6,982 bases of DNA from Thiolapillus brandeum (GTDB taxonomy: Bacteria > Pseudomonadota > Gammaproteobacteria > Chromatiales > Chromatiaceae), in assembly GCA_011051425.1 (NCBI GenBank), contig DRLF01000346.1, forward strand, positions 1 to 6,982. The letters run 5' to 3'. Position numbers and translations under genes: made by a program. Each line of letters opens with the position of its first letter. Position 1 is the first letter of the stretch. The notes under the pieces were generated by a model. It saw only the letters and a list, made by a program, of their open reading frames with translations, did not search any database and had not been told where the DNA came from. Shown piece by piece: positions 1,159-6,982 of this stretch.

Positions 1159-2508
1159 TCAGCCCAGATCATATTTGCCTATCAGCCGGTATACATGACG
1201 CTCGCTGATGCCCATGACCTGTGCCACCGTAGCCCGGTGACCCGCATGTTTCTCCAGCAACATCTTCAGGTAAGAGGCTTCCAGCTCTTCCAGAGTGGGG
1301 CTTGAACCGGAAGGGAGATCGAGCTGGAAACCGGCGGGATCCTGCTTGCAGGCACCAAAGGTCAAATGCTGGCTGCGGATGATTTTCTTGTCCCTGGAAA
1401 GGATGATGGCCCGCTCCACAACGTTCTTCAGTTCCCTGACGTTTCCCGGCCAGTCATAGGCAATGAGCTTGCGCATGGCCTCCTTGGTGACGCTTTTCTT
1501 CACCCGCATGGAAAAGTCATGGTTGCGGATGAAATGTTCCACCAGGAAGGGGATATCTTCACGGCGTTCCCTGAGGGGCGGCGTATAAATGGTGAAGGCT
1601 TCCAGCCGGTAGTACAGATCTGCCCTGAATTCACCGTTTTCAGACATCTTCTTCAGGTTCCTGTTGGTAGCCGCGACGATGCGCACATCCGAACTGAGAT
1701 CCTTGGTGCCCCCCACCCTGCGGAACTGGCCCGTTTCCAGTACACGCAGCAGTTTGGCCTGTATCGCCGGCGGGATTTCACCGATCTCATCCAGAAACAG
1801 GGTACCGCCTGCAGCACCTTCGATCCGGCCCTGCTTCTTTTTATCGGCACCAGTGAAGGCGCCTTTTTCGTGACCGAACAGCTCGGACTCGAACAGGCTT
1901 TCCTGCAGCGTACAGCAATCCACTGCCACGAAATTGCGCTTTGTGCGGTGACTCTGATCATGGATGGCCCGTGCCACCAGCTCCTTGCCGGAACCGCTCT
2001 CTCCCAGCACCAGCACGGTCATATCGCTGTCCGCTACCGCATTGATCAGTTCTTTTACCTGATCCAGCGCTTTGCTCTGGCCGATCATGAAACGCTGCGA
2101 ATCCGCCTGTGCAGCCAGTCGCGCCTTGCAAAACTGATGATCGGCCTTCAAGGCGGCGGTATTCAGCACGCGCCGGACCGTAAGCGCCAGTTCATCCGGG
2201 CTGACCGGTTTGCTCAGATAATCGGCCGCGCCGGCCTGAATGGCTTCCACGGCATTCTTCACGGTGCCATAGGCTGTCAGCACGATCACGGGATGGAATT
2301 CCGCCAGGGCCGGCAGCTCTGCCAGACAGTCTCCATCCGGCAGCCGCATGTCTGAAATAATCAGGTCGGGTTCGTATTTTTTCAGATAGTCGCGGGCATC
2401 ACCCAGGCTTCCCATGCCAGCCACCTCATAACCCATACCTTCCAGTTGCCGCGCGATCATGCGGTTCAGCAGGGCATCGTCTTCAATCACCAGGATACGC
2501 GTCTTCAT
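1159..2508 (-). CDS. NtrC-family sigma-54-dependent response regulator
   Basis: A 449-residue DNA-binding response regulator that, once phosphorylated, activates transcription by sigma-54 RNA polymerase. Receiver domain (1-115): acidic pocket Glu9-Asp10-Asp11, phosphoacceptor Asp53 (in SDMRLPDG), Thr78 and Lys100. AAA+ domain (about 140-380): Walker A GESGSGKE at 169-176, the sigma-54 contact loop GAFTGA at 216-221, Walker B GGTLFLDE at 234-241, and an arginine-finger region (FRADLYYRL) further on. The C-terminus (about 405-449) is a Fis-type helix-turn-helix (RATVAQVMGISERHVYRLI). All key residues are present and the length is typical. Its ATG overlaps the stop of the kinase gene by four bases (ATGA), so the two are translationally coupled and form a cognate pair. 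Likely targets are the two sigma-54 promoters at 4521 and 5687. It belongs to the NtrC/ZraR/AtoC group; I cannot assign a specific ortholog. Confidence 0.95.
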   Translation of the reverse strand: MKTRILVIEDDALLNRMIARQLEGMGYEVAGMGSLGDARDYLKKYEPDLIISDMRLPDGDCLAELPALAEFHPVIVLTAYGTVKNAVEAIQAGAADYLSKPVSPDELALTVRRVLNTAALKADHQFCKARLAAQADSQRFMIGQSKALDQVKELINAVADSDMTVLVLGESGSGKELVARAIHDQSHRTKRNFVAVDCCTLQESLFESELFGHEKGAFTGADKKKQGRIEGAAGGTLFLDEIGEIPPAIQAKLLRVLETGQFRRVGGTKDLSSDVRIVAATNRNLKKMSENGEFRADLYYRLEAFTIYTPPLRERREDIPFLVEHFIRNHDFSMRVKKSVTKEAMRKLIAYDWPGNVRELKNVVERAIILSRDKKIIRSQHLTFGACKQDPAGFQLDLPSGSSPTLEELEASYLKMLLEKHAGHRATVAQVMGISERHVYRLIGKYDLG

Positions 2509-4358
2509 AATCCTGGCACTTCCGGGTCAGCTTCGGGGATTACCACGGTAAAGCAACTTCCCTGTCCCTGTGTACTGGAAGCACTCAGCACACCGCCACA
2601 GTTCTCGACGATGGTCCTGGAGATCGCCAAACCCAGACCAGTGCCGCTGACGCCATCCGCACGCCGGCTGAAGAAGGGCATGAAGATATAGGGAAGCTCA
2701 TCTTCGGGGATACCCACACCGGAATCTGTAAACGTCAGAACAACCTCATGACCGGTCAGCTTGCCGGCAATGGTCAGCCGGCCGCCATCCGGCATGGCAT
2801 GGAAAGCATTCTGCACCAGATTGAGTGTCAGCATGCGCATCTCACTGCCGCTGGCGATGACACGCAAAGGCTGATCAGGAAAATCCCTGACAAGTTCGAT
2901 ACCCGACTGCTCCGCATCCCATTTCAGCAGGGTCAGGGTATCGTCCACCACCTCCTCCATATCCACCAGCTCTTTTTGCTCCATGGGCGCAGCACTGAGA
3001 CGCAACAGGCGATCCGTGATGTTGATGCACTGATCCATCTCCTGTTCGACCACGGAGAGATAGTCCGACACCTCTTCCGACTGTCCCTCACGGTCGACGC
3101 TCTGCAGCAGGGAATGCAGGGCCAGCTTCATGGAACTGAGGGGATTGTAGATTTCATGGGCCACCCCTGCGGCAAGCCTTCCCAGTTCCGACAGTCGCTG
3201 CTCATGGGTGAAGCGCACCTGCTGGCTGAGATCACGAATGGATTCGACGACCAGGGTAATCTCCTGTCCACCTCTCATGATACGCATGGGTGCTGCATAG
3301 ATTTCCACATCAAGAGTATCTTCACCGTCATGACAATGATGGTGGATAACTTTCAGCGGCTTCGGGTCCTTGCGGATTTCTTCTACCGGACAGGTCAGCA
3401 GATCCACCGGACAGGGTGAGTCCAGGTTGTGTGCGACACGGTAGCATTTCTCACCCGAACAGGCCTCGTCCGGCCACTGGACCTGTTCGCAGAATGTCCG
3501 GTTGACCAGCAGCATGTTGTAGTCATCGTCAATGATGCGCACGCCATCCGGTATGGCATCCACCAACGCCTGCAGGAAGGCATGGCTCTCTTCCAGTTCA
3601 AGCGTATGGCGCTGCAGACTTTCGGCCATTTGATTGAAACTGTTCCCCAGGCTGGCCAGTTCATCCTCACCGCGGGTCGGCACGCGGGAATCCAGCTTGC
3701 CACTGGCCAGTTCATCACTCGCCGCATTCAGCGCTGCCACGGGTTTGAGTATGAACCGGCGGATGAACCACCAGCCACCCAGCAGATTGATCACGACGAT
3801 CAGCGATCCGGCGCCCATCAGCACCAGGGTGGTGTCACGCGCCTGGTGGCGCATGGAAGTGGCATCGTAGTCCACCAGCAGGATGCCGTTTACCGGATGC
3901 TTTTCCAGTGGCCCGTGACAAACCTGACAGGGGGGTTTGTTATGCACAGGATTGACGCTGCGCAACACTTCCCTGCCGGTTTCGTCCTTCATGAATCGCG
4001 TTTGGGCTTCCAGGCCTTCGATGAACTCCTTGCCGATGATCTTTCCCTCAAGATCGGGACGGCTGGCAAAACGTACCTTTCCCTGGGGATTCACGATCAT
4101 CACTGCGCTGACATTTTCCTGTTCTCCCAAATGCCGGACGATGGTGATCAGGCCATCGATATCACGCTTGAGCATGGCATTTTCCAGGGAAGTCTGCAGC
4201 AAACGGTTGACGTCGTGAGCCGCCTGGGCCTTCTCCTGCTCCAGCTTGTTTTGATAGAAACCCAGAAACAGCGCAAGAAACACCACCGAACTGATCAGAA
4301 AACCTGCGATGGTCGCGATGGTGAACCTGTGATTCAGGCTTTTTCCGAACCAGGTCAT
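2505..4358 (-). CDS. Membrane sensor histidine kinase with periplasmic heme c motif and Cys-rich PAS domain
   Basis: A 617-residue kinase, partner of the downstream NtrC-type regulator. In order: TM1 (about 12-34); a periplasmic sensor domain (35-177) with one CxxCH (CQVCH, 144-148), the covalent c-type heme attachment motif; TM2 (about 178-199); HAMP (about 200-255); PAS (about 258-378); HisKA with phosphoacceptor His401 in HEIYNPL; and a HATPase with N box (LNLVQNAFHAM, 513-523), G1 (DSGVGIPE, 546-553) and G2 (GTGLGLAI, 573-580). The cytoplasmic PAS carries Cys290, 300, 305, 316, 323 and 342 plus His310, His339-341 and His343, a possible second metal or redox site. Heme c in periplasmic sensor domains is known from Geobacter chemoreceptors (GSU0582, GSU0935), so redox or ligand sensing is a fair inference. 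A TTG start at 4424 would add 22 residues, but the ATG at 4358 has a strong ribosome binding site and gives a normal N-terminus. Confidence 0.93.
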   Translation of the reverse strand: MTWFGKSLNHRFTIATIAGFLISSVVFLALFLGFYQNKLEQEKAQAAHDVNRLLQTSLENAMLKRDIDGLITIVRHLGEQENVSAVMIVNPQGKVRFASRPDLEGKIIGKEFIEGLEAQTRFMKDETGREVLRSVNPVHNKPPCQVCHGPLEKHPVNGILLVDYDATSMRHQARDTTLVLMGAGSLIVVINLLGGWWFIRRFILKPVAALNAASDELASGKLDSRVPTRGEDELASLGNSFNQMAESLQRHTLELEESHAFLQALVDAIPDGVRIIDDDYNMLLVNRTFCEQVQWPDEACSGEKCYRVAHNLDSPCPVDLLTCPVEEIRKDPKPLKVIHHHCHDGEDTLDVEIYAAPMRIMRGGQEITLVVESIRDLSQQVRFTHEQRLSELGRLAAGVAHEIYNPLSSMKLALHSLLQSVDREGQSEEVSDYLSVVEQEMDQCINITDRLLRLSAAPMEQKELVDMEEVVDDTLTLLKWDAEQSGIELVRDFPDQPLRVIASGSEMRMLTLNLVQNAFHAMPDGGRLTIAGKLTGHEVVLTFTDSGVGIPEDELPYIFMPFFSRRADGVSGTGLGLAISRTIVENCGGVLSASSTQGQGSCFTVVIPEADPEVPGL

Positions 4359-4417: not shown

Positions 4418-4432
4418 CTGACAATTTGTCAT
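4418..4432 (+). promoter_or_regulatory. Regulator box 1 (CTGACAAWWWGTCAT), probable enhancer site of the NtrC-type regulator
   Basis: CTGACAATTTGTCAT, whose core TGACA-N3-TGTCA is a perfect palindrome. It is one of three copies in the window, all in the same orientation and found only in the two intergenic regions ahead of sigma-54 promoters. Its centre is 97 bp upstream of the -24 GG at 4522, the usual distance for an NtrC-type upstream activating site. It also lies about 60 bp upstream of the divergent kinase start, so it could mediate autoregulation. It resembles the E. coli CusR box (TGACAANNTTGTCA) but the half-sites are one base closer. That the neighbouring regulator binds it is inference. 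Confidence 0.7.
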
Positions 4433-4520
4433 GTTGCCATACAGGCCGCCCACCCTAGGCACAGCGGATACGAAATAAAACATCTGCCTACACAAGGCTG
4501 TGGCCGCTGTTTGTCGATAT

Positions 4521-4536
4521 TGGCGTGGCTCTTGCT
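4521..4536 (+). promoter_or_regulatory. Sigma-54 (-24/-12) promoter of the 4583 gene
   Basis: TGGCGTG-GCTC-TTGCT matches the sigma-54 consensus TGGCACG-N4-TTGCW, with GG at 4522-4523 and GC at 4534-4535 in correct spacing. Transcription would start near 4547, giving a leader of about 36 bases. The element closely resembles the second sigma-54 promoter at 5687; both continue into TTGCTTTA. Confidence 0.8.
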
Positions 4537-4582
4537 TTAGCTCCTGAACGTAATCAATCGATCTTTATTGCAAGGTGGCGAC

Positions 4583-5332
4583 ATGAAAAAATTATCAGCA
4601 ACCCTGCTGGCGACAACGCTGGCTGTCTTCTGGGGAAGCATCAATGCACAGGTAACGGTTTCCAGTTTTGAAAAAACGCTGGAAACTCCTCAGACAAATG
4701 CATCCACAGACCAGAAACTGGATACAGCAGATCTGACCCGCAAACTCGAGGCGGCAGGCTGGCATGTACTGGAAGAGGAAAACGGCAATCTGATCGTTAC
4801 GCGCAAAGCCGGCGATAAGAATGATGCGGCATCGGGCGCAAAACAATGGCAGGACATCGAACAGCAGCTGCAAGAGACAGGATGGACCACGCGCCGTGAT
4901 GCAGATGGCTCTCTGATTCTCATTCCACCGGCAATACCCGCTCCCGAAGCACCGGCAGCGAAAACCGGGCAGACAGGCTCCTTTGAGGACATGCAGCAAA
5001 AACTCCGGGATGCCGGCTGGGAGGTGACCAATACAGCTGACGGCAGTATTCTCCTTTACCCCCCCGCCAGCAAAGTCACCAACAAGCCCAGGGCCTGCCC
5101 GGGACTGCCGCAGACTGCGGGTGTCTCACTGCCCGTGGACAGCTGGCAGAAGGCGCACAGCATTGCCACAGACTGGCTGAATCACCAATCCGGTTATAAC
5201 GCCACAGTGGGCAAAATAAGAAAAATCCTGAATGTCTACATCGTCAGCATCGTGGCTGACCGGACACCTCATACACTGATTCAGCAGATTGCCATCCGCA
5301 ATAGTGATGGTGCCGTCATCGTCTTGAACTGA
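4583..5332 (+). CDS. Exported protein with three GW/DGSLILxPP repeats and PepSY-like C-terminus, function unknown
   Basis: A 249-residue protein I do not recognise. Residues 1-22 are a Sec signal peptide (cleavage near INA-Q), so it acts in the periplasm or outside. It contains three copies of a roughly 25-residue unit at 51-73, 92-116 and 137-161: an amphipathic helix (LxxKLxxAGW-like, GW at 59-60, 100-101 and 145-146), then a turn and a strand (DGSLILIPP, DGSILLYPP; ENGNLIV in the degenerate first copy). Ala/Pro- and Lys-rich linkers separate them. The tail (about 186-249; VGKIRKILNVYIVSIVADR ending DGAVIVLN) resembles a PepSY domain in pattern, a weak call. There is one Cys (172). The start is the ATG at 4583 with AAGGTGG seven or so bases upstream; an in-frame TTG at 4568 lacks such support. 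It has its own sigma-54 promoter and is divergent from the kinase, suggesting that it is a target or an accessory of that system. Confidence 0.85.
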   Translation: MKKLSATLLATTLAVFWGSINAQVTVSSFEKTLETPQTNASTDQKLDTADLTRKLEAAGWHVLEEENGNLIVTRKAGDKNDAASGAKQWQDIEQQLQETGWTTRRDADGSLILIPPAIPAPEAPAAKTGQTGSFEDMQQKLRDAGWEVTNTADGSILLYPPASKVTNKPRACPGLPQTAGVSLPVDSWQKAHSIATDWLNHQSGYNATVGKIRKILNVYIVSIVADRTPHTLIQQIAIRNSDGAVIVLN

Positions 5333-5372
5333 CAGGATACTGAAAAAGTCCATCCATGGCCTTTTCAACAGC

Positions 5373-5401
5373 GGAAACCGAAAAGTGCGCTTGCGGTTTC
5401 C
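5373..5401 (+). terminator. Hairpin downstream of the 4583 gene, probable weak terminator
   Basis: Arms GGAAACCG (5373-5380) and CGGTTTCC (5394-5401) pair perfectly, and the loop can pair further (AAG with CTT). A pyrimidine-rich TTCATTTCC follows instead of a clean T-run. It lies 40 bases after the stop at 5332. A second, imperfect stem (5342-5366, GAAAAAGTCCAT against ATGGCCTTTTC) precedes it. Together they probably end the transcript. Confidence 0.45.
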
Positions 5402-5448
5402 TTCATTTCCGGCTGTCTGGAAACTGCTCCGGCTTCCAGGCAGCCCAT

Positions 5449-5463
5449 CTGACAAATTGTCAT
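5449..5463 (+). promoter_or_regulatory. Regulator box 2 (distal)
   Basis: CTGACAAATTGTCAT, with the perfect 13-base palindrome TGACA-AAT-TGTCA; its core is the reverse complement of box 1's core. It is centred about 232 bp upstream of the -24 element at 5688 and 137 bp (close to 13 helical turns) upstream of box 3, so the two would lie on the same DNA face. A distal enhancer site or a site for cooperative binding is plausible. Confidence 0.65.
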
Positions 5464-5585
5464 TTCTGCAGAAATTCCCTTGCATTTCTCCCATAAACAG
5501 CTGTTTTACCGAATATTGTCCTCTTACATGAGAAACCGTTCACATTAAGACTTCCTCTGACTTGGGGCAGAAGCGCAGATCACCC

Positions 5586-5600
5586 CTGACAAAAAGTCAT
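5586..5600 (+). promoter_or_regulatory. Regulator box 3 (proximal)
   Basis: CTGACAAAAAGTCAT. The outer arms TGAC/GTCA are kept, while the centre is AAAAA instead of a symmetric sequence. It is centred 95 bp upstream of the -24 GG at 5688-5689, almost the same distance as box 1 from its promoter (97 bp). This conserved spacing is the main argument that the boxes are activator sites. Confidence 0.65.
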
Positions 5601-5656
5601 GTTTAAACCAACCGCCGGTTCGACGTCATACCGGGAAGTTATTTTTTAAGCAGCTA

Positions 5657-5669
5657 AATCAACATGTTG
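5657..5669 (+). promoter_or_regulatory. IHF binding site between box 3 and the sigma-54 promoter
   Basis: AATCAACATGTTG matches the IHF consensus WATCAANNNNTTR at every defined position, with an A/T tract (ATTTTTTAA, 5641-5649) just upstream as in many strong IHF sites. It sits in the interval where IHF bends DNA to bring an NtrC-type activator to sigma-54 polymerase. I see no equally good match in front of the other promoter. Confidence 0.6.
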
Positions 5670-5686
5670 CAATACTACAGCCAGTT

Positions 5687-5702
5687 TGGCACAGGCTTTG
5701 CT
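5687..5702 (+). promoter_or_regulatory. Sigma-54 (-24/-12) promoter of the 5741 gene and probably the genes after it
   Basis: TGGCACA-GGCT-TTGCT departs from the sigma-54 consensus at one base only. GG is at 5688-5689 and GC at 5700-5701. The start of transcription is expected near 5713, about 28 bases before the ATG at 5741. Confidence 0.85.
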
Positions 5703-5740: not shown

Positions 5741-6037
5741 ATGAAAAACACCATTATTCCGATAACCCTTTCAGGTCTTTTCGTGCTTTCCACTGCGGCC
5801 ACGGGTGCAGACCCGGCCTACCCCATTGCGGGTACCGCACCTTACCAGCGGCCGGCTGGCGCACCTGTCATCGAATGGGTGCAACACGACCGCGCCTGGT
5901 TCGAGCATGCCCTGACAGGCATTCAACGTCCCTACCCGCGCAGTCTCTATTTCCTGGACAACCAGGGAAACTGGTACACGCCATTTACCCGTCCAGGCAT
6001 GACCCCACCCTATGACTTGCGTGGGTGGCATCAATGA
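5741..6037 (+). CDS. Small exported protein of unknown function
   Basis: A 98-residue protein that I cannot assign to a named family. Residues 1-23 are a Sec signal peptide (ITLSGLFVLSTAATGA), leaving about 75 mature residues. These are rich in Pro, Tyr, Trp and other aromatics and end in a distinctive segment, FLDNQGNWYTPFTRPGMTPPYDLRGW split over residues about 71-96. There is no Cys, and only three His remain in the mature part. The composition suggests a small compact or surface-associated protein. It is the first gene after the strong sigma-54 promoter at 5687 and is followed after 101 bp by the Met-X-Gly repeat gene on the same strand. The ribosome binding site is poor; a two-codon ORF ending in ATGA at the start codon may matter for initiation. 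The gene is well supported by promoter, signal peptide and frame; its role is unknown. Confidence 0.8.
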   Translation: MKNTIIPITLSGLFVLSTAATGADPAYPIAGTAPYQRPAGAPVIEWVQHDRAWFEHALTGIQRPYPRSLYFLDNQGNWYTPFTRPGMTPPYDLRGWHQ

Positions 6038-6138: not shown

Positions 6139-6690
6139 ATGAAAATGCGAATGCGTAACTTAGGCAAGCAAATCAAAAAAATCATCGGTGTAGCTGCCGT
6201 TATTGGCGCGGTAAGCGCAGTACCTGCTAGCGCCAGTATGTACGGCATGTCCGGTATGTCTGGCATGAACGGCATGGGTGGCATGTCTGGTATGGGTGGC
6301 ATGTCCGGCATGGGTGGCATGTCCGGTATGGGTGGCATGAGCGGTATGTCTGGTATGTCCGGCATGGGCGGCATGTCTGGTATGTCTGGTATGTCCGGCA
6401 TGGGCGGCATGTCTGGTATGTCCGGCATGGGCGGCATGTCTGGCATGGGTGGCATGAGCGGTATGTCAGGCATGGGCGGCATGTCCGGCATGTCCGGCTA
6501 CTTCAAGATCACGCCGCAAGGCCAGATCTTCTTCTATCCCGCAACTGGCATGAGTGGCATGTCCGGCATGAGTGGCATGTCCGGCATGGGAGGCATGAGC
6601 GGTATGTCTGGAATGGACGGAATGTCCGGTATGTCTGGAATGGACGGCATGAGCGGAATGTCCGGGATGGACGGCATGTCAGGTAACTGA
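6139..6690 (+). CDS. Exported Met-X-Gly tripeptide-repeat protein
   Basis: A 183-residue low-complexity protein not matching any family I can name. Residues 1-33 look like a Sec signal peptide with a long basic start (MKMRMRNLGKQIKK) and cleavage near PASA-S. The rest is almost only Met-X-Gly: 29 triplets at 34-120, then a short non-repetitive segment YFKITPQGQIFFYPAT (121-136), then 15 triplets at 138-182. X is mostly Ser or Gly. In the second block Asp appears every nine residues (160, 169, 178). There is no Cys or His. Gly every third residue recalls collagen-like geometry but without Pro; the dense Met could bind Cu(I) or be oxidised, which fits the heme/copper surroundings but is inference. 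It has a strong ribosome binding site (AGGAGG, seven bases before the ATG) and a leader hairpin, suggesting abundant synthesis. It may be co-transcribed with the 5741 gene. Confidence 0.88.
   Translation: MKMRMRNLGKQIKKIIGVAAVIGAVSAVPASASMYGMSGMSGMNGMGGMSGMGGMSGMGGMSGMGGMSGMSGMSGMGGMSGMSGMSGMGGMSGMSGMGGMSGMGGMSGMSGMGGMSGMSGYFKITPQGQIFFYPATGMSGMSGMSGMSGMGGMSGMSGMDGMSGMSGMDGMSGMSGMDGMSGN
6238..6498 (+). repeat. Coding tandem repeat block 1 (29 Met-X-Gly codon triplets)
   Basis: A 9-base coding period throughout. A 27-base unit encoding MSGMSGMGG is identical at the base level at 6346-6372, 6382-6408 and 6409-6435, evidence of recent internal duplication. Elsewhere Ser codons vary (TCT, TCC, TCA, AGC), so the array as a whole is older and its amino-acid pattern is kept by selection. 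Confidence 0.95.
6550..6684 (+). repeat. Coding tandem repeat block 2 (15 triplets, MSGMSGMDG super-repeat)
   Basis: The same 9-base period as block 1, but from residue 153 on it forms three consecutive 9-residue units MSGMSGMDG. These carry an acidic residue absent from block 1, and GGA glycine codons, which block 1 lacks. The two blocks have therefore diverged. Confidence 0.92.
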
Positions 6691-6773: not shown

Positions 6774-6982
6774 ATGCAAAAGCTTCGTACTCTTTTCAAC
6801 TTGCTTCTTTTTGCGATAGTACCGCTGTTCTTTTTCTATGCGGCTGCTCTGGTCACGGCTTATTTGTATACAGGTTCGCCTGGCGCACCAAAACCGCAGG
6901 CAACCATGATTGCGTCGGTGCAAAACTTGGTTTCCGACAATGGGGTCGCAATCGCGCCTCCTCCCGCCCAACCGTCACAGCC
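6774..6982 (+). CDS. Membrane-anchored protein of unknown function (N-terminal 69 residues, cut by window edge)
   Basis: The reading frame is open from ATG 6774 to the window end. The N-terminus MQKLRTLFN is followed by a long hydrophobic segment (about 9-32, LLLFAIVPLFFFYAAALVTAYLY), more like a membrane anchor than a cleaved signal. A Pro/Ala/Gln-rich stretch follows (SPGAPKPQA and, at the edge, APPPAQPSQP), typical of a linker to a periplasmic domain. GGGGA (6762-6766) lies seven bases upstream as a ribosome binding site. It follows the repeat-protein gene by 83 bp on the same strand, with the hairpin at 6710-6736 between. No domain is visible in the part present. Confidence 0.72.
   Translation, partial: MQKLRTLFNLLLFAIVPLFFFYAAALVTAYLYTGSPGAPKPQATMIASVQNLVSDNGVAIAPPPAQPSQ

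Follow-up and report, generated by a model that had tools for sequence, protein, structure and literature searches.

A palindromic box, TGACA-N3-TGTCA, recurs at conserved distances from two sigma-54-type -24/-12 sites, beside genes for a CxxCH-containing sensor histidine kinase and an NtrC-type activator, in the 6,982-nucleotide stretch of DNA analyzed here (the window). The window is the entire contig C346 of a Thiolapillus brandeum MAG (2.74 Mb, 84% complete). Comparison with relatives supports the sigma-54 regulon proposed in the initial annotation, and we hold with good confidence that the boxes, the NtrC-type regulator, and sigma-54 promoters control EXP as well as P98, MSGM, and a DmsA-like complex. 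The same annotation had pictured a self-contained system that ends in exported proteins of unknown function, which proved too narrow: in relatives, the operon behind P2 runs on into a DmsA-like molybdoenzyme complex, and extra box-plus-promoter sites precede further Met-rich protein genes. Carriers of the module are sulfur bacteria, clam and tubeworm symbionts among them. In the open-licence literature, we found no paper describing the TGACA-N3-TGTCA box, the regulon, or the MSGM protein, which is no proof of absence; a scan of viral contigs returned no relative.

Boxes and sigma-54-type sites in the window

The features of the window are the following.

2-1088: CopA-type multicopper oxidase gene and CopL-like gene, beside the regulator gene
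1159..2508, minus strand: NtrC-type response regulator with a receiver, a sigma-54 AAA+ domain with GAFTGA, and a Fis-type HTH (Pfam PF00072, PF00158, PF25601, PF02954)
2505..4358, minus strand: sensor histidine kinase with an N-terminal segment carrying CQVCH, HAMP, PAS, HisKA, and HATPase (Pfam)
4418..4432, no strand: box 1, core TGACAATTTGTCA at 4419-4431, a perfect palindrome
4521..4536, plus strand: P1, sigma-54-type -24/-12 site TGGCGTGGCTCTTGCT (pattern scan)
4583..5332, plus strand: EXP, 249 aa, with repeated AGW..DGS(L/I)xL..P units (62 matches including itself; alignment A1)
5449..5463, no strand: box 2, core TGACAAATTGTCA at 5450-5462, a perfect palindrome
5586..5600, no strand: box 3, core TGACAAAAAGTCA at 5587-5599, with an imperfect right half-site
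5687..5702, plus strand: P2, sigma-54-type -24/-12 site TGGCACAGGCTTTGCT (pattern scan)
5741..6037, plus strand: P98, a small protein and the first gene behind P2 (220 matches including itself; same place in relatives)
6139..6690, plus strand: MSGM, a Met/Gly/Ser repeat protein (translation, composition)
6774-6980: P69, the start of an ORF whose N-terminus looks membrane-like; it directly follows MSGM and runs off the contig

All three boxes of the initial annotation were located by search, and reading confirmed their identity at 12 of 15 positions. The box-centre-to-GG distances given there (97 and 95 bp) are correct, and both -24/-12 sites were found as described. The remark that the boxes always share one orientation is empty for the cores of boxes 1 and 2, because these are perfect TGACA-N3-TGTCA palindromes and a shared orientation is thus uninformative. 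The core of box 3 has a single broken half-site position. Measured from the core start, box 1 is 102 bp upstream of the -24 TGGC of P1, and box 3 is 100 bp upstream of that of P2; box 2 precedes box 3 by 137 bp.

At up to 3 mismatches, the window holds five box matches, two of the sites counting once per strand, where 0.85 would be expected; none of 200 shuffled windows reached five. Between 4358 and 6982, there are no sigma-70 promoter-like sites (shuffle mean, 2.7) and four terminator-like sites (mean, 2.3). Within its own genome, TGACAANNNGTCA occurs three times forward and twice in reverse, and the reversed-pattern control three and four times; every exact TGACAANNNGTCA site falls inside the window. 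Because the own-genome count (5) does not exceed the control (7), box-plus-promoter patterns and relatives were used instead.

The N-terminus of EXP is signal-peptide-like by eye, and P98 is likely exported, also judged by eye. An EXP profile matched in 46 of 194 family genomes. A structure of EXP predicted with AlphaFold has a mean pLDDT of 70 and a pTM of 0.40; compared with the PDB, it returned nothing at E <= 0.001, the best hit being a weak one to the YpeB C-terminal domain (E = 0.02).

Conservation and spacing of the box

A scan of named genomes yielded 16 loci, from Sedimenticola MAGs, from the symbionts of Bathyaustriella, Lucinoma, and Taylorina, and from other Gammaproteobacteria; additional relatives supplied further loci. 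Every 5+N+5 inverted repeat in the kinase-EXP interval was then counted over 38 loci, namely, those with a kinase gene, the window included, which are kin by descent and not independent. A fixed 330 bp served as the interval whenever EXP had no match or lay beyond the contig. Five loci were omitted as kinase-less (L004, L019, L064, L111, and L113), and weak kinase, regulator, and dmsA matches (<30-35% identity) were filtered out. Loci already represented (e.g., L058, L060, L062, and L070) were counted once, and L010 and L013 are separate loci from the same genome. TGACA-N3-TGTCA was present in 33 of the 38 intervals, and the best unrelated palindrome in 4; CTGAC-N5 (18/38) and GACAA-N1 (17/38) overlap TGACA-N3-TGTCA and represent the same type of site. 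A perfect box is absent from the interval in L017, L018, L114, L123, and L124. No box was found in a scan of the whole L114 stretch, and in L124 a perfect box sits between EXP and P98 (11938-11950). Before EXP in L124, the halves occur in swapped order (TGTCA-ATT-TGACA).

The check proposed in the initial annotation comes out in its favor. The box is conserved between the kinase and the first target gene in relatives, and its combination with a promoter is not scattered: a scan of 210 family genomes retrieved 48 box-plus-promoter sites in 40 of them. A box followed by TGGC-N7-TTGC at a gap of 80-110 bp occurs at 23 sites in 15 genomes, and at a gap of 45-75 bp at 25 sites in 25 genomes, with the limit that the latter search was not blind, some short-spacing loci being known beforehand. 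The reversed pattern with TGGC-N7-TTGC gave 0 sites in either gap range among the 210 genomes. The short-gap site is carried by 21 of the 22 genomes of one genus (g8).

The nearest matched gene behind the 48 sites is EXP in 38 cases, P98 in 6, and an MSGM-like gene in 3, with 1 contig end. EXP accounts for all 25 sites of the 45-75 bp class; in the 80-110 bp class, the numbers are 13 EXP, 6 P98, 3 MSGM-like, and 1 contig end. For these assignments, the distance from site to gene was measured up to the matched portion and ranged from 48 to 574 bp, which leaves room for an unmatched small ORF in between. Two of the MSGM-like sites (genomes G060 and G197) are on stretches without a matched kinase, regulator, EXP, or P98, and the third (G116) adjoins a regulator gene. 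A DmsA-like gene is present in 37 of the 40 genomes with a box-plus-promoter site; those without one (G116, G134, and G190) are 72-89% complete.

Spacing from core start to TGGC falls into two main classes, with the search ranges setting the bounds of these distances. In the 80-110 bp class, 17 of 23 sites lie at 100-104 bp, 5 at 110-113 bp, and 1, a P2, at 122 bp; in the 45-75 bp class, 24 of 25 lie at 69-72 bp and 1 at 88 bp. The main classes therefore differ by about three helical turns. When no range limit was imposed, P1 distances that break the rule were 88, 156, 238, 278, and 309 bp.

Two boxes precede P2 in 16 loci, the window included, which were picked because two boxes were visible. 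Boxes 2 and 3 of these loci are separated by 132-147 bp, with 12 of the 16 at 134-138 bp. A perfect distal box is paired with a proximal box broken in its right half-site in 10 of the 16; the proximal box of L071 is broken in the left half-site. A P2 with a sigma-54-type site and no perfect box before it was found in L107-L110, L117-L122, and L125. NtrC-type hexamers work by DNA looping, and we infer that the two-box arrangement is what looping by such a hexamer would require.

Some boxes have no sigma-54-type site at a fitting distance (L005 at 2194, L059, L063, L066-L068, L073-L076, and L105) and were excluded from the count of regulon members. Separately, an additional box-plus-promoter site beside a thioredoxin/NHL-repeat-like gene, recognized by eye, was seen in three genomes of one genus (L111:2979-4595, L112:4743-6305, and L087:3-1481); the L087 contig stops just past the promoter.

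The sensor-regulator pair and assignment of the box

The regulator belongs to the NtrC family by its receiver, Sigma54_activat, and Fis-type HTH domains, all above Pfam cutoffs, and the GAFTGA reported by the initial annotation is present in its translation. It scores below the curated cutoffs of AtoC, NtrC, and ZraR. Like the NtrBC, ZraSR, and AtoSC types, the system combines a receiver, a GAFTGA AAA+ domain, and a Fis HTH with palindromes placed ~70-120 bp before -24/-12 sites. It differs from them in its CxxCH sensor, its TGACA-N3-TGTCA box, and its targets, a DmsA-like complex with a Met-rich partner.

The CQVCH motif in the N-terminal segment of the kinase, at residue 144, is its only CxxCH and a candidate c-type heme site; reading of the sequence places it on the periplasmic part. 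One CxxCH per kinase was found in all 38 kinases examined, the window included. Against PF21563 (Mcp40H-20_sensor), which we take to be a heme-sensor domain, the kinase scores 25.8 bits, with the cutoff at 27. The sigma factor gene rpoN was not found in this MAG (84% complete) and is present in 14 of 15 genomes of the genus, i.e., in all 14 others searched.

We propose that the adjacent NtrC-type regulator likely uses TGACA-N3-TGTCA as its operator. The CxxCH kinase would bind a c-type heme, sense a redox or ligand signal on the periplasmic side, and phosphorylate the regulator. The latter would bind in helical register, occupying one box at P1 and, at P2, the perfect distal box plus a proximal one that is often weaker; looping of the DNA would carry its AAA+ ring to the sigma-54 RNA polymerase. 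P1 would drive EXP, and P2 would drive P98, MSGM, and, going by relatives, probably the DmsA-like molybdoenzyme and cytochromes. The output would likely be a periplasmic complex of the sulfoxide-reductase type, fed by a multiheme cytochrome and made with a Met-rich partner.

Alternatively, the box may belong to another, possibly global regulator, with the adjacent NtrC-type protein working elsewhere or at other sequences. Such an assignment would accommodate the five loci that lack a perfect box and yet encode an orthologous regulator (58-63% identical, with an HTH of similar look), as well as the boxes without a matching promoter elsewhere in the genus. However, a box used by a global regulator should also turn up at further sigma-54 sites, whereas for 47 of the 48 box-plus-promoter sites the nearest matched gene is EXP, P98, or MSGM-like (the other meets a contig end). 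The box also occupies the very interval that separates the regulator operon from its neighbor. We consider it very unlikely that the box serves a different regulator.

The operon behind P2 and its methionine-rich protein

In relatives, the P2 operon continues with genes for a multiheme cytochrome, the DmsA-like molybdoenzyme, an Fe-S subunit, and a chaperone. EXP or P98 occurs together with the cytochrome gene cytM on 17 of 29 stretches examined. On all 17, an MSGM-type ORF lies between EXP/P98 and cytM, and cytM is followed by dmsA, dmsB, and torD; a monoheme cytochrome was matched on 11 of them and a ferredoxin on 16.

The operon genes of L057 were identified via NCBIfam and Pfam. Its DmsA-like protein has DmsA/YnfE as its best NCBIfam match (TIGR02166; 623.6 bits against a cutoff of 777.7) and is thus treated as a relative and not filed as a curated member; the DmsB-like protein likewise scores under the TIGR02951 cutoff. 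Because the Tat-signal match is also below its cutoff, a periplasmic location of the enzyme is rated only as likely. The best solved relatives are DMSO reductases. When the own-genome copy was aligned to Rhodobacter DMSO reductase, the position of the Ser that serves as Mo ligand in DMSO reductases matched, as did the SY of the SYGW motif. In passages of PMC7402097, SYGW is given as a sulfoxide-reductase motif and Rhodobacter DorA is described as reducing protein-bound MetO. The enzyme here, which shares the aligned Ser and SY with DorA-type DMSO reductases, has AG in place of the GW of DorA and comes with an Fe-S subunit and cytochromes.

In the Thiolapillus MAG, the cytM-dmsA operon is on contig C409; its cytM has five CxxCH motifs, and its dmsA is 93% identical to that of genome G077. 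The window contig stops short of a dmsA operon, breaking off behind MSGM once a further ORF has begun, and C409 opens with a short stretch (...MSGMSGWK-stop) followed by cytM. Because MSGM in the window has a different end and a further ORF begins behind it, C346 and C409 cannot simply be called neighbors. A cytochrome gene occupies the place of P69 in relatives; thus, the MSGM gene of the window may be an additional one.

Several genomes have two dmsA copies. In G194, a second copy (77%) lies directly behind a sigma-54-type site, divergent from EXP (L064). Second cytM-dmsA pairs were also seen some kilobases behind the first (L110:1-1462 and L122:18528-20000), with a dmsA 70-71% identical to that of L057 over the part present. 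At L109:1156-4883, <2 kb from the regulator gene, a TGGC-N7-TTGC site precedes separate Fe-S, NrfD-like, and multiheme-cytochrome-like ORFs, as judged by eye.

MSGM contains 47 Met and 59 Gly in 183 aa, with zero Cys and zero His, and its N-terminus is signal-peptide-like by eye. Its distribution was followed with a DNA pattern for M-S-G-M-x-G-M-S-G-M-x-G-M, and that of the DmsA-like enzyme at a cutoff of E <= 1e-100. Each was found in 63 of the 210 family genomes, with no reversed-pattern matches for MSGM; 59 genomes have both, 4 have the enzyme alone (G014, G067, G133, and G180), and 4 have MSGM alone (G054, G055, G116, and G121). In the window's genus, 6 genomes have both, 9 have neither, and none has one alone. 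A class sample of 323 Gammaproteobacteria gave 15 genomes for each and 14 for both, across ten families, the singles being G239 (enzyme only) and G449 (repeat only); the reversed control pattern matched in G422 and G488. Fisher tests gave 3.6e-42 (210 genomes) and 1.9e-22 (323 genomes), values that treat genomes as independent though they are not. The co-occurrence counts mark the enzyme and the Met-rich protein as a pair that is widespread and extends beyond the box-controlled module.

What this pair does may be read in more than one way. Small-molecule respiration (of DMSO, TMAO, or selenate), with the Met-rich protein as a structural, assembly, or electron-transfer accessory and not a substrate, is to us a quite plausible function, close to an even prospect, and it is compatible with the proposed regulon. 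The database matches to DmsA/YnfE and to solved DMSO reductases favor it, and the authors of a lucinid symbiont study took a similar gene as a possible DMSO respiration route. It leaves unexplained, however, why a partner that is about one-quarter Met (47/183) co-occurs with the enzyme in ten families, and no DmsC-type membrane anchor was recognized in any ORF of L057 as far as the end of the locus. The enterobacterial DmsABC and YnfEFGH DMSO-selenate reductases share with the complex the catalytic (TIGR02166) and Fe-S (TIGR02951) subunits and a TorD/DmsD-like chaperone; here, by contrast, scores are below curated cutoffs, no DmsC was recognized, and multiheme and monoheme cytochromes are encoded. 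E. coli dms is under Fnr/NarL control, whereas sigma-54 control is predicted here.

A copper-response module would instead have the Met-rich repeats bind Cu(I), with CopA and CopL in the same response. Met-rich motifs are known copper ligands, and CopA- and CopL-like genes adjoin the regulator in the window. Yet CopA adjoins the regulator in 7 of the 38 kinase loci, all of the window's genus (L009 and L072 are not judgeable, their contigs stopping within the regulator), no box is listed at cop genes, and MSGM tracks the molybdoenzyme. A role in copper response appears improbable to us.

More tentatively, and as a possibility we would rate as rather unlikely, the pair may constitute an undescribed periplasmic methionine redox cycle, in which MSGM would be a reservoir of oxidizable Met and the DmsA-like enzyme, fed by the pentaheme cytochrome, would reduce its MetO, under heme-c kinase/NtrC-type/sigma-54 control via TGACA-N3-TGTCA, in free-living and symbiotic sulfur oxidizers. 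A related known system is MrpX-YedYZ (SigF/NrsF) of perchlorate reducers, for which passages of PMC4623255 describe an exported protein rich in Met and, as its partner, a molybdoenzyme with the chemistry of a sulfoxide reductase. Like that periplasmic methionine cycle, the present system has a Met-rich protein encoded with a reductase, with export here judged by eye. Unlike it, the enzyme here is of the DMSO reductase family instead of YedY, the repeats are long and regular Gly-Met repeats, and a two-component sigma-54 system is predicted instead of a sigma/anti-sigma pair (SigF/NrsF). The same passages cover PcrPSR, a histidine-kinase system that controls perchlorate reductase, and mention Sedimenticola versions. 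PcrPSR resembles the present case as a histidine-kinase system adjoining an operon for a DMSO reductase family enzyme and differs in the enzyme.

Genes with similar annotations have been reported from lucinid symbionts. They are reported as highly expressed during the upwelling season in clades of Thiodiazotropha (PMC12172469, Table 1), and a divergent soxY is reported near genes annotated as DMSO reductases (PMC11237559). No work on the control of the DMSO-reductase-like genes of lucinid symbionts was found in the open-licence literature. The enzymes of the lucinid papers may be either the box-controlled copies or the second copies seen in several genomes. For such genes, our finding proposes an operator, a regulator, and a sensor, and it predicts which genes would be coexpressed. 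Through co-occurrence in ten families, it also ties the DmsA-like enzyme to a Met-rich protein.
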